Origin: Schlesneria paludicola DSM 18645
GTDB taxonomy: Bacteria; Planctomycetota; Planctomycetia; Planctomycetales; Planctomycetaceae
Length of the DNA: 36,357 nucleotides
Assembly: GCA_945862235.1 (NCBI GenBank)
Contig: CAMAYU010000040.1
Location: 1-36,357 of the forward strand
Reading direction: 5' to 3'
Below are positions 1 to 3,453 of the stretch, piece after piece. Within the stretch, counting starts at the first letter, position 1, and every line of letters begins with the position of its first letter. The translations under genes were made by a program, and so were the position numbers. The notes beneath the pieces were generated by a model. That model made no database searches and was not told the origin of the DNA. It was given only the letters and a program-made list of their open reading frames with translations.

Positions 1-60
1 CAGCCCCCGGACTCTTCGCATCGAATGAAGCAGTCCGGGGGCTGACGCCGCCCGGCTCAC
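1..60. repeat. Palindromic repeat inside the PKS AT region, cut by window edge
   Basis: Arms at 1-13 (cagcccccggact) and 32-44 are exact reverse complements. The following gacgccgcccgg continues a motif whose left mate would lie outside the window. The same core (ggcgtcagccccc and its complement) recurs in the intergenic palindrome at 27615-27697 and, eroded, at 23225-23290. Here it is translated in frame as part of the PKS, residues ~998-1018. Confidence 0.7.
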
Positions 61-3055
61 CGAGTTCCGATTTCAAGTCGATTGCCTCTAGCCCAGCCAT
101 CGTCGCCCGCAATTCATCCGCCGAGCGGTCGATCACCCCGGAGACCCAATCGACCGACTCACCCTCAGGCACGCCCCACGCCTTTCGCGCCGCATCGAAC
201 GGCGCGACGAGGTCGCTGCCAAACAACGGCGACTCTTCCATCCGACGCAGCATCTCATCGCGGTCGATCCAAGCGCGCAGGCCGAACAACGCGGCGGACT
301 CGCCGAGGCTGTAGCCGATGCTGGCCGAGGGCCTCACGCCAAACAGTGCCAGCAGATCACACACCGCCGTTCCGATGGCGACTTGTCCGAAGATCATCGC
401 CTTGTGGTTGGCGAGCAACTCGGCATTGGAACGGCCTTCCCAAATGAGGTCGGGGCGATACTGATCGTGGAGCCGTTGGTTCTCAGCTTCCTGACGACGC
501 AGTACATCGGGGAACGCGGCGAGCAACTCACGGCCCATGCCGACAAAGGCATTGCCCGAACCAGGGAAGACGAACGCGACTCGGCCCGTTTCGCCAAGCG
601 GCTTGCGCCAACCCGCCGATCTGCATGTTTGCGGGACCGGTCCATCTTCGGTTGCGTCTCGCCAAAGCTCGCGTGCGGAAGCGGTCGCAGCTTCAGGGCG
701 GAACGAATTGAGAAGCCCGGTGGGGTGGTGGTGCTTCAGCGGGCCGCAGCGGTTGGAGGCTTCGTTGAACACCGCGTGGATGCGCGTGCCCGTGCGATGA
801 GCGTCCTCCAGCCGAGTCAGCACGAAGCCGATCGCGCCGTCTTGCGGTTCGTCTTCCGTCGCGCCAACGAGATAGCGAACATCGCACGGCAGATCGACCG
901 CGCCGACGATCGCGCGATCCAGCTCGCCTCGCTGCAACATGCCGACCGCGACACGAAACGCGACACCGCCCGAGTCGCCTCCCGCCGAAATCGTGAAGCT
1001 GGGGCCGCCGACATCGAACTCGCGGGCCAGACGGCTGGCGACGATACCGCCGAGGTTGCCCATCACGCGGTTCGGTGTGAGCGGCGGGCCGGCGGCGTCC
1101 TTGAGTTGCTTCGTCCACTCAGCGAGTTCGTCCGGCGTGAGGTCGAGGCCCAGCATCTCGACCCAGCGCGGGGCGTCCTGCTCGATCGACCATCTCAGGT
1201 GGAAGTTCGTCGTGTTGGGATCGAGTTCGATCCCGATAAAGACGCCGGTGCGGGACGGGTCGAGGGTTTTAGGTTGAGGGTTGAGGAGCAGAGACTCCGC
1301 GTCGCGCAGCGCTTCGGCAGCGACCTTCAGCATCAGTTGCTGCTGCGGGAGCATGTCCTGCATTTCGAGCGGCGGAATGCGGAACTGGCCCATTGGCATC
1401 CGAACTTCGTCGATGGCTCGCACATGCGGGGCTGCATCTGACCGCTCGCCCACGATTGTGGATTTCCCGGCGATGGCGATCGGCCGGGGATCGCTCGCAG
1501 CGACTGTCGGATGGGCACTCCTGCCCGTCCGCTCTTCGCCTTGGCTTTGAGTTTGCGGTGTCATTGCATCACGCGGCGATGACGAACGAAGAGGACGGGC
1601 AGGAGTGCCCATTCTACTGTCATCGCACCACTCCTCGATCAGCACATGCGCGTTGATGCCGCCGAAGCCGAAGGCGTTGATGGTGGCTCGGCGCGGGATG
1701 TGAGCGCCGTCTTCCTGCTGCCCCTCAACCCTCAACCCTCGACCTTCAACTCTCTCCACCCACGGCTGCGCTTCCGCCAACACACGGAACGGGCTGTCGG
1801 CAGCGGCCATGCGCGCGGCGGGTTGTCGGTAGTTGGCGGTCGGCGGCAGCGTGCGGTGCCTGAGTGCGAAAAGGACTTTCATCAGGCCAGCCGCGCCGGC
1901 TCCGGTGAGCAAATGGCCGACGTTCGACTTCACTCCGCCGATGACGCATTGCTGAGGCCGCGCGTGTTCGTTCTGCCAGAGTTGATGCAGCGACTCGATT
2001 TCGACGGCGTCTCCGACGGGAGTCCCCGTCGCGTGGCATTCGATCAGATCGACATCGCTCGGCTGCCAACCGGCCTGTTCGTAGGCGGAACGCATCGCGC
2101 GGAGTTGCCCTTCGGAAGCCGGGGCCAGCAGGTTCGCACCCCGATCGTTCGAGAGGCCGATCCCCGCGATGACGCCATAAATGTGATCGCCCGCCGCGAC
2201 TGCATCGCTCAACCGTTTGAGGACGAAGACGCCCGCTCCCTCACCGACAACAAGTCCATCCGCTTCACCACTGAGCGGCGCACAACGGCCACTCTTCGAC
2301 AACGCCTGCAGCTGCGCGAAGCCCATCTGCGTGTACTGGCAATCGGGCCGAGACATCCCCCCCGCCAACATCGCATCGGCGCGATGAGCCAGCAGTTCCT
2401 CCGACGCGAACTTCAACGAGTAGAGCGACGATGCACAGGCCGCATCGAGCGTGAAGGCCGTCCCGCCCAGACCAAGGCCCTGTGCGATGAGGCTCGACGG
2501 GAGACCGGCCGCGTAGCGATTTAGCGGGTGCCAGTCACTTCGGTTCAGCGCGGCTTTGAGTACGTGGCGTCTCTCGTCCGGCAGCGGGGTCACATCGATC
2601 AGGTTCTCAACGAACGTCCGTCCGACGACATCGCGGCAGATGGCGGAAGTCGATTCGGTCGGGAGCGCGATGTTGCCGAGAATCACGCCGACGCGCGCGA
2701 GGTCGGTGCCCCCAAGCTGTCTCGCGTCCCGAAACGCCGCGCGCGCCGCATGCAGTCCGAGATGAAACATCGGGTCGAGCCGCTCCAGCAAAGCGCGGTC
2801 AAGGTTCAGCCCTTCGGGGTCAAACTGAAAGCCCTCAATGAAGCAGCCCCATGTCGAATAGACGCGATCCGGTTGCGGAGGCCACGGCGCGGATGCCTTC
2901 TCGGGCGAGAGGTACCACCGTCCGTCAGGCACATGCCGCCCGCAATCGACACCATTCGCGACATTCTTCCAAAACGTGTCGAGGTCCGGCGCACCGGGAA
3001 AGATACCCCCCACGCCCACAATGGCGATCCGTTCAGACTGATCAGAAACAGGCAT
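1..3055 (-). CDS. Type I polyketide / PUFA-synthase-like protein, KS - half-KS - AT, 3' end outside window
   Basis: The minus strand reads open from ATG at 3053-3055 to the window edge, about 1018 residues. Residues ~8-472 form a complete ketosynthase: active-site Cys207 in DAACASSL, His341 in HATGTP and His381 in KSNVGH. Residues ~522-800 resemble only the N-terminal half of a second KS; its cysteine position reads SAGGDSGG (Gly ~693) and no HGTGT or KSNxGH follows, so it should be catalytically dead, like a chain-length-factor or PfaB-type domain. From ~825 an acyltransferase begins (VAFVFPGSG) with nucleophile Ser916 in GYSLGE. The KS, KS-like, AT order recalls bacterial PfaB/PfaC and other iterative PUFA-type synthases, so a long-chain polyketide or polyunsaturated lipid product is inferred. 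Loops and the interdomain linker carry repeat-derived insertions (see repeats at 1258, 1511 and 1724). No clear Shine-Dalgarno precedes the ATG; the start is chosen because the KS motif RIAIVGVGG follows nine residues later. Confidence 0.9.
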   Translation of the reverse strand, partial: MPVSDQSERIAIVGVGGIFPGAPDLDTFWKNVANGVDCGRHVPDGRWYLSPEKASAPWPPQPDRVYSTWGCFIEGFQFDPEGLNLDRALLERLDPMFHLGLHAARAAFRDARQLGGTDLARVGVILGNIALPTESTSAICRDVVGRTFVENLIDVTPLPDERRHVLKAALNRSDWHPLNRYAAGLPSSLIAQGLGLGGTAFTLDAACASSLYSLKFASEELLAHRADAMLAGGMSRPDCQYTQMGFAQLQALSKSGRCAPLSGEADGLVVGEGAGVFVLKRLSDAVAAGDHIYGVIAGIGLSNDRGANLLAPASEGQLRAMRSAYEQAGWQPSDVDLIECHATGTPVGDAVEIESLHQLWQNEHARPQQCVIGGVKSNVGHLLTGAGAAGLMKVLFALRHRTLPPTANYRQPAARMAAADSPFRVLAEAQPWVERVEGRGLRVEGQQEDGAHIPRRATINAFGFGGINAHVLIEEWCDDSRMGTPARPLRSSSPRDAMTPQTQSQGEERTGRSAHPTVAASDPRPIAIAGKSTIVGERSDAAPHVRAIDEVRMPMGQFRIPPLEMQDMLPQQQLMLKVAAEALRDAESLLLNPQPKTLDPSRTGVFIGIELDPNTTNFHLRWSIEQDAPRWVEMLGLDLTPDELAEWTKQLKDAAGPPLTPNRVMGNLGGIVASRLAREFDVGGPSFTISAGGDSGGVAFRVAVGMLQRGELDRAIVGAVDLPCDVRYLVGATEDEPQDGAIGFVLTRLEDAHRTGTRIHAVFNEASNRCGPLKHHHPTGLLNSFRPEAATASARELWRDATEDGPVPQTCRSAGWRKPLGETGRVAFVFPGSGNAFVGMGRELLAAFPDVLRRQEAENQRLHDQYRPDLIWEGRSNAELLANHKAMIFGQVAIGTAVCDLLALFGVRPSASIGYSLGESAALFGLRAWIDRDEMLRRMEESPLFGSDLVAPFDAARKAWGVPEGESVDWVSGVIDRSADELRATMAGLEAIDLKSELGEPGGVSPRTASFDAKSPGA
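1258..1285. repeat. Heptamer tandem array (ggttgag)n inside PKS
   Basis: Four consecutive 7-bp units read ggtcgag, ggtttta, ggttgag, ggttgag. They encode about ten residues (NPQPKTLDP, near 591-600) in a loop of the degenerate second KS domain, just before GVFIGIE. A matching array in opposite orientation lies at 1724-1751. Confidence 0.6.
1511..1612. repeat. Long palindrome absorbed in frame into the PKS interdomain linker
   Basis: A 20-bp arm at 1511-1530 (atgggcactcctgcccgtcc) is exactly reverse-complementary to 1593-1612, with a further imperfect match (gctcttcg against cgaagag) inside. The element is read in frame and encodes PKS residues ~482-515, a Ser/Arg/Thr/Gln-rich stretch between KS1 and the KS-like domain. 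It resembles intergenic REP/MITE-type palindromes elsewhere in the window but is coding here. Confidence 0.75.
1724..1751. repeat. Second heptamer array inside PKS, inverted relative to the first
   Basis: Four 7-bp units read ctcaacc, ctcaacc, ctcgacc, ttcaact on the plus strand, i.e. ggttgag-type units on the minus (coding) strand. They encode VEGRGLRVEG (residues ~435-444) in KS1, between the ...QPW segment and the conserved RRATINAFGFGG segment, where most ketosynthases have only a short linker. Confidence 0.6.
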
Positions 3056-3303
3056 GAGGCATCCGAGGGGGGGCGTGGTGGCAGTGTTGCGAAGCCCGGC
3101 CGTTCGGAAACCCGGTCTTCGACAACGGGCGGCATCATAGTCCCCGCCGATTGCGCACTCCATTCAATAGATACGGTCGAACGGTATGTCTGTCGGCAAA
3201 CGAGCGGCCTCGTGACCGAACGGCTGATTCAACCGGGACAACCACTCAAGTCGGTACGCGCGGACGGTCGATGGCAGTTGGTGAGTTGGCGCAAGGACGA
3301 TCA

Positions 3304-3400
3304 GCCTGTTGAAACACTTCGAGTAGGCGGCCCGCCTGCTCACATGTCTCGTTGAAAAACACAGGCGAGCCGCCTGTGCTACGAGGTCTTCAACAGGCGG
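3304..3400. repeat. Nested palindrome in the PKS-lipoprotein gap
   Basis: The 398-bp gap 3056-3453 holds no convincing gene. Its right part contains an imperfect inverted repeat: gcctgttgaa at 3304-3313 pairs with ttcaacaggc near 3389-3398. Inside are a perfect hairpin cacaggcg-agc-cgcctgtg at 3360-3378 and an aggcgg/ccgcct hairpin near 3324-3337. The ORFs crossing it look like translated repeat. Nothing recognisable was seen in 3056-3303. Confidence 0.55.
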
Positions 3401-3453
3401 CTCTGGGCGTGACATCTGAGTAAACAAGGCCACCATTTATAAAGGGGCAGGCG

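Follow-up and report, generated by a model that had tools for sequence, protein, structure and literature searches.

Protein-coding palindromes are classically tied to Rickettsia, and Opitutus is also among the known cases of such sequences or of in-frame repetitive extragenic palindromes (REPs). In REPIN/RAYT systems, REPs form inverted doublets present in high copy. Here we describe contig C40 of Schlesneria paludicola DSM 18645 (the window; 36,357 nt, a whole contig of a 6.83-Mb, 377-contig draft genome), on which a putative megasynthase gene begins that carries segments of four dispersed repeat families: a heptamer element (H), a REPIN-like doublet (R) and two further palindromes (P and T). 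Very probably, these segments derive from short non-autonomous palindromic elements, dispersed through the genome, that inserted into a functional gene.

Rickettsia palindromic elements (RPEs) are dispersed palindromes of about 100–150 bp that lie in frame in unrelated genes and also have intergenic copies (PMC2229807, PMC10969869, PMC6649704), with 'nearly half' of them in open reading frames (ORFs) according to one review (PMC10969869). The elements of the window genome resemble RPEs in being dispersed palindromes, in frame in unrelated genes and with intergenic copies (PMC2229807, PMC10969869, PMC6649704). They differ in belonging to another phylum, the planctomycetes, in the heptad arms of H and in the location of H, which lies in coding sequence (CDS) at 40 of 42 places against nearly half for RPEs, a comparison made by description (PMC10969869). 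In the work of Di Nocera et al. 2013, GTAG/CGTC REPs form inverted dimers and occur in frame within genes, uvrA among them (PMC3733652); the same text reports different REPs at about the same recB site in two Xanthomonas and notes REP families in Planctomycetes (PMC3733652). As a GTAG-tagged inverted dimer found in genes, R is of a type already reported there, whereas the H arms have no GTAG tag, none was seen in P, and at least four repeat families load one gene here (PMC3733652). The GGTTGA heptads of H carry neither GTAG nor CGTC, and the heptamer family was not met in the passages of that survey consulted here (PMC3733652). Palindromic amphipathic repeat coding elements (PARCELs) are coding DNA with dyad symmetry that has spread between genes and taxa, and the likeness lies in dyad-symmetric coding DNA dispersed among genes (PMC2996958). 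R resembles REPIN/RAYT systems in its high-copy inverted doublets, and the window genome has Y1_Tnp genes flanked by GTAG hairpins; it differs in that a search of six loci revealed no RAYT with R-family repeats on its flanks. The megasynthase insertions are a new case of an already published kind, and the heptamer family, with its 40 of 42 places in CDS in its own genome, is a new form of it. We recognised no published report of it in the titles and abstracts of the literature searched, a search outside which most subscription papers fall; the literal peptides and DNA words retrieved no papers.

Repeat-derived segments in the megasynthase gene

The gene lies on the minus strand, starts with an ATG at 3055 and runs off the contig start, leaving 1018 amino acids in the window. 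Pfam identifies a ketosynthase (KS) domain at residues 8–409 and an acyltransferase (AT) domain from residue 828, the latter cut by the contig end and scoring 32.4 bits, just below the curated 32.7; between them, a second KS-like stretch has, as read from the translation, Gly at the usual active-site Cys position. The end of contig C317 shares the same 59 nt as the window end (seen in the list of palindrome P matches), and joining the two contigs by this exact overlap, which lies inside the palindrome, gives an open frame of 2377 codons in which the AT resumes in frame (RVYLLIVNTPTQCVIGG) and is followed, in the C317 part, by three FabA-like stretches. The KS/KS-like/AT/dehydratase order resembles that of PfaC- or Pfa3-type subunits of polyunsaturated fatty acid synthases, and the gene is predicted to encode a lipid-type megasynthase of a Schlesneria-like planctomycete. 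The segments are as follows (residues of the joined megasynthase):

Window 1..3055, minus strand: 5' part (1018 codons) of the KS/KS-like/AT megasynthase gene, from ORF, Pfam and the join to C317
Window 1724..1751, minus strand, residues 435–446: H G-arm, in gene sense AGTTGAA GGTCGAG GGTTGAG GGTTGAG
Window 1502..1621, minus strand, residues 478–518: REPIN-like doublet R, two GTAG-REP-like arms with cores 1506–1530 and 1593–1617
Window 1258..1285, minus strand, residues 590–599: H C-arm, translating as LLNPQPKTLDP, in the loop after ALRDA in the second KS (KS2)
Window 1..59, minus strand, residues about 1001–1022: palindrome P copy 1, truncated where the contig ends, with the full copy at about 1–73 of C317
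C317, near residue 1097: H arm pair
C317, near residue 1232: H arm
C317 about 1288–1352, residues about 1430–1450: palindrome P copy 2, in frame
L127:2192–2363, residues 1730–1787: composite of H arm, T palindrome and H arm

A first-pass annotation of the window had named four repeat-derived features in this gene. All four are present, and the joined gene in fact holds at least eight such segments from the four families; two further stretches look repeat-derived by eye only. The two heptamer arrays that it had placed in opposite orientation are mutually inverted and lie at 1257–1286 and 1722–1754, the latter translating as VEGRGLRVEG immediately ahead of PRRATINAFGFGG. The palindrome it had marked at 1511–1612 proved longer: the R doublet, translating as SRMGTPARPL...GEERTGRSAHPT in the KS1–KS2 linker, has arms 1502–1533/1590–1621 that are 88% complementary, with one arm carrying GTAG and the other GTCG, and its fold (z −7.3) was matched in stability by 0 of 200 shuffles. 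At 1–60, the palindrome reported earlier does have fully complementary arms (1–13/32–44, span 1–44; 100%), although it is only the truncated part of a longer palindrome that the contig boundary interrupts and that is complete on C317, where its fold reaches z −11.2; this P copy translates as GEPGGVSPRTASFDAKSPGADAARI within a variable AT loop. In the composite insert, the order H G-arm, T palindrome (LTLALSPQSRGEG), H C-arm looks as if one element had landed inside another. Two P copies in the gene compare with 0.04 expected (p about 0.0009), in a test made after the fact. A Poisson enrichment of H in the gene was rejected, as it mixed match thresholds; by the threshold of the 18-mer search described below the gene has one H place.

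That the gene is an assembly or binning artefact, or a decaying pseudogene, might be suspected from a 377-contig draft in which a repeat divides the gene over two contigs, but we hold this to be extremely improbable. The joined frame is open over all its codons and aligns full-length with orthologues, the C317 piece was the sole strong match in the continuation search (669 bits; two other matches scored 43 and 22 bits), and insertions of these kinds are also present in further assemblies, one of them the single-contig genome G015. Between the orthologues of the sister pair G011 and G012, the gene is under purifying selection (pS 0.43, pN 0.064, dN/dS 0.10).

All five elements whose folding we computed, namely R, P, two H and the G011 REPIN described below, form strong hairpins (z −6.7 to −11.2). 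Such hairpins are what one would look for if the segments were removed after transcription or skipped in translation, in the manner of an intron, intein or bypass, yet sense-frame stop avoidance and open, frame-keeping inserts would then be needless, and this explanation has next to no likelihood (no intein, intron or RNA-family search was made). We infer instead that the segments are absorbed as peptide into the megasynthase. In an AlphaFold model, the inserts at 480–521 and 590–597 are of low confidence; this proves little, because the model is weak (mean pLDDT 64.3) and several native stretches (237–270, 766–829 and 911–956) are low as well.

Dispersal of the repeats and anatomy of H and R

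Whether the DNA words recur in the genome had been left as a check by the first-pass annotation; they do, and are dispersed genome-wide. An 18-mer search for H allowing at most one mismatch gave 60 matches in the window genome against 0 for a control with the reversed pattern, and 0 in the 14 other genus members searched. The R arm (21-mer, at most two mismatches) gave 127 matches against 0 for the control, with 1, 2 and 1 matches in three of the 14 congeners and 0 in eleven. P returned 89 BLAST matches, a number that counts both palindrome strands and the window and merges to about 40 places. Among the 24 R loci inspected, many copies read GTAGGATGGGCACTCCTGCCCGTCCGCTCTTC, a loop and an inverted arm, that is, a GTAG-REP doublet, and many show GTAGGATGGGCA-CTCC-TGCCC or close variants, in which a short imperfect palindrome has GTAG at its foot. 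R thus fits the description of a GTAG-REP or REPIN: GTAG foot, high copy, inverted doublets and a mainly extragenic location.

Read in gene sense, H consists of a G-rich arm, a variable loop and a C-rich arm, and single arms occur as well. The usual G-arm is GGTTGA[GT] GGTCGAG GGTTGAG GGTTGAG, and 20 arm pairs lie within 220 nt (18 in CDS, one at a gene edge, one intergenic), beside 19 G-only and 15 C-only arms. These many single arms, together with their period of 7 and the hypervariability of the two H host loops that we aligned across the genus, would suit slippage in GC-rich linker codons, whereby heptamer stretches arise in place and only resemble one family. We regard that origin as very unlikely: a similar ordered arm (a second heptad with TCGA or another non-TTGA unit, then GGGTTGAGGGTTGAGGG) recurs in unrelated genes, the arm is often paired with an inverted arm in elements of 57–198 nt, and H has no match in the 14 congeners, nor its reversed control in the window genome.

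The reading frame of H bears on its residence in genes. Pure (GGGTTGA)n has TGA in every frame, and (TCAACCC)n has no stop. Across 23 intragenic G-sense arms, the 24 phase-0 units, in which TTGA would give TGA, comprise 0 TTGA, 15 TCGA and 9 others; in phases 1–2 of the same arms TTGA prevails (62, with 1 TCGA and 6 others), as it does in 39 C-sense arms (123 TTGA, 16 TCGA, 24 others) and in ten arms called intergenic, three of which really lie in the megasynthase (30, 7 and 8). Among sense-first R 5' arms in genes, 11 of 11 avoid the frame in which TAG would be a stop and use the other two; the one remaining R copy in CDS, the twelfth, consists of a 3' arm alone.

Genes versus intergenic DNA

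For the census we fetched 142 segments around matches (556 kb) and called genes with a codon-likelihood program that we wrote, by which 79% of this DNA is coding; the R places are those of 100 of the 127 arm matches plus those of an earlier R search. With C317 assigned to the megasynthase, H lies in CDS at 40 of 42 places. Among the matches listed, 12 of 80 R places are in CDS, 6 at gene edges and 62 intergenic, and 6 of 40 P places are in CDS, with one at an edge; here the window copy is counted once per contig, hence twice, and one of the six is near an N-terminus. Counted as finer instances, 50/53 H, 12/84 R, 9/57 P and 18/28 T are in CDS (H versus R, Fisher p 4e-22), and both 100-codon flanks score as coding for 23/53 H and 11/84 R (p 1e-4). 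H is not depleted in genes; R and P strongly are. An enrichment of H above coding density was unsupported (47/53; p 0.09 at 79% coding, 1.0 at 88%).

Two H loci lie between called genes, on C85 (between DUF58 and BatA) and C89 (between SIS and an EF-G-like protein). At both, the neighbours are different genes, which speaks against a broken gene, and these loci therefore look truly intergenic; an extra insert suspected in the EF-G-like neighbour was examined and not confirmed. A third H locus, on C299, is bordered by a called gene at just one of its sides.

H-bearing genes

Thirty-three ORF calls carry H, the megasynthase being counted twice, and 30 of them have Pfam domains in a scan that was partial for C256 and C42; those on C73, C58 and C153 gave none. 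Hosts include MutS, UvrA, MnmA, a polyprenyl synthetase, an AIRS-type (PurL-like) protein and an Lhr-type helicase, as well as UbiD, an MqnA-type protein, proline racemase, nitrite/sulphite reductase, and PSD1/PSCyt2 and DUF7133 proteins. DNA-repair and tRNA-modification genes are thus among them, and the arms are often inverted G-arm/C-arm pairs. Against solved structures, MnmA has 77 extra residues (including a T palindrome and a variable native loop), MutS has 58, and the prenyl-diphosphate synthase has 34 where its homologue has 3; native loop accounts for a share of this extra length. The MnmA and prenyl-diphosphate synthase loops vary in length in 14 congeners, some of them being long too, and by eye no H was seen in any of these loops.

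H is therefore a dispersed palindrome that lies in frame within several conserved but unrelated genes. By sequence comparison it is absent from orthologues at apparently tolerated positions in the megasynthase, the prenyl-diphosphate synthase and MnmA, and in MutS by comparison with solved structures only. The proposed likeness to in-frame palindromic insertion is thus supported, and the heptamers of the first-pass annotation become the arms of a dispersed inverted-repeat element that is in frame in about 32 genes.

Comparison with orthologues

Of 99 genomes (own included), 69 match the megasynthase at E<=1e-30, many only through KS paralogues. Among 29 aligned orthologous loci, both length and sequence differ at the sites before PRRATINAFGFGG, in the KS–KS linker and after ALRDA, and likewise at the AT insertion site, and the window's own segments are absent. 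By eye, none of these peptides was seen in the 29 loci or in 17 full or partial genes, which answers the question whether orthologues carry them. Relative to several relatives, KS1 does have the extra ~15 residues before RRATINAFGFGG that had been claimed for it, but other congeners have unrelated, similarly long extensions there. A 70%-gap rule, applied to the full-length alignment of the gene with 17 relatives, picks out the inserts from residue 994 onward. H-like peptides also occur in the orthologues of two genomes from other genera, G015 and G039, where they sit in a linker further along.

The sister pair G011/G012 carries a different GTAG doublet REPIN, in frame, in the same KS–KS linker, where it reads VGR(L/I)SNPSEMNSLPDG(L/V)EIRPT. 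Its core has 21 and 9 matches in their own genomes, 2 in the Schlesneria window genome and 0 in 12 others. In the gene tree, G010 and G013 group with G011/G012, and G009 with the window sequence; since these three carry neither REPIN, the simplest reading is two separate gains at the linker. On contig C75 of the window genome (L332:227–333), one doublet resembling the G011/G012 REPIN lies about 3 kb from a Y1_Tnp gene.

Within the G011/G012 REPIN there are no synonymous changes over 17.7 sites and two nonsynonymous ones; pS is 0 in a fraction of 0.0035 of 1691 overlapping 22-codon windows along the two genes. This silent-site identity may reflect DNA constraint, gene conversion or chance. Set against the gene's pS of 0.43, it could indicate that the elements are domesticated, that is, kept as flexible linkers, as DNA or RNA hairpins or as G-quadruplexes, and two further points would fit: (GGGTTGA)n would match the G3N4 quadruplex pattern, and the MnmG proteins of G039 and G393 use the same H site. 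We consider domestication unlikely, as the identity concerns a single segment, for which recent gene conversion would yield the same pattern, and the insertions are missing from most orthologues, and so are dispensable to the protein family.

H in other genomes

Of 397 genomes of the class, the window genome among them, 41 contain H, many with one to three matches and with a top count of 323 in G026; the reversed control gives matches in some genomes too, such as 113 in G374. We examined 20 H loci from seven other genomes, picked from listed matches and not at random. Those in CDS are in UvrA (G026, G015, G319), MnmG (G039, G393), MetG, an Omp85 protein and a VWA protein (G319), and Pfam backs all eight as real proteins; MnmG of G039 has 29 residues where a solved homologue has 5. 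Of the other 12 loci, two are at contig ends; the remaining ten lie between genes, immediately ahead of a start, or in DNA that offers no convincing frame.

At L340 and L351, H occupies the same MnmG site in two different genera (G039 and G393). At L338 and L339 of G039, two H arrays stand directly before an apparent start codon, which suggests that leaders or N-termini may likewise take up H.

Proposed mechanism and its supports

We propose that the elements would land by transposition or copy-paste, R perhaps through a RAYT. Insertions that break the frame or strike folded cores would be lost, and inserts with an open frame and a length divisible by 3 would persist in disordered landing sites, translated as hydrophilic linker peptide. 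Where a usable frame would meet TGA, H has a non-TTGA unit, and an element so compatible with genes would be little selected against. The window genome has six Y1_Tnp matches, one with internal stops, and three such RAYT-like genes (L091, L093 and L095; C75, C195 and C119) are flanked by inverted GTAG hairpin pairs of several non-R types. RAYT-like systems are therefore present, although we could link none of them to R, and nothing to H or P.

Several points weigh against insertion of mobile elements followed by accommodation in genes. No RAYT flanked by R was found among the six Y1_Tnp loci within the flanks examined. The 70%-gap rule misses the three KS1/KS2 inserts in the full-length alignment, because congeners have other residues at those sites. 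The census rests on our own gene caller, and the share of H in CDS does not exceed that of coding DNA overall (79% in the segments and 82% in the window contig); H should therefore be described as undepleted in genes, not as targeted to them. The phase-0 absence of TTGA is partly conditioned on calling open frames, which forbid TGA; the informative part is therefore the persistence of such arms through several different substitutions. In other genomes, only 8 of the 20 H loci are in CDS, and near-exclusive residence in genes is thus established only for the window genome.

As a tentative extension, H could be an ORF-adapted mobile palindrome whose frame is opened by the recurrent non-TTGA heptad, colonising genes as freely as intergenic DNA and giving rise to new loops in essential planctomycete proteins, perhaps moved through its telomere-like G-quadruplex arms. 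In one planctomycete genome, and with one gene caller, H is not depleted from genes beside REP-like repeats that are. The conversion of selfish DNA into protein sequence thereby becomes open to testing: which loops admit it, by what route an open frame evolves, and whether long odd loops of planctomycete enzymes have a repeat origin. Annotators and structure modellers should be aware that peptides such as STLNPQP, VEGRGLRVEG, VGRALLPV, DGQECPSY and EPGGVSPRT can be repeat-derived.

Upstream of the megasynthase start, the intergenic window positions 3299–3403 hold an inverted repeat with GTAGGCGG... and ...CCGCCTGTGCTAC ends, which is probably another REP-like element.

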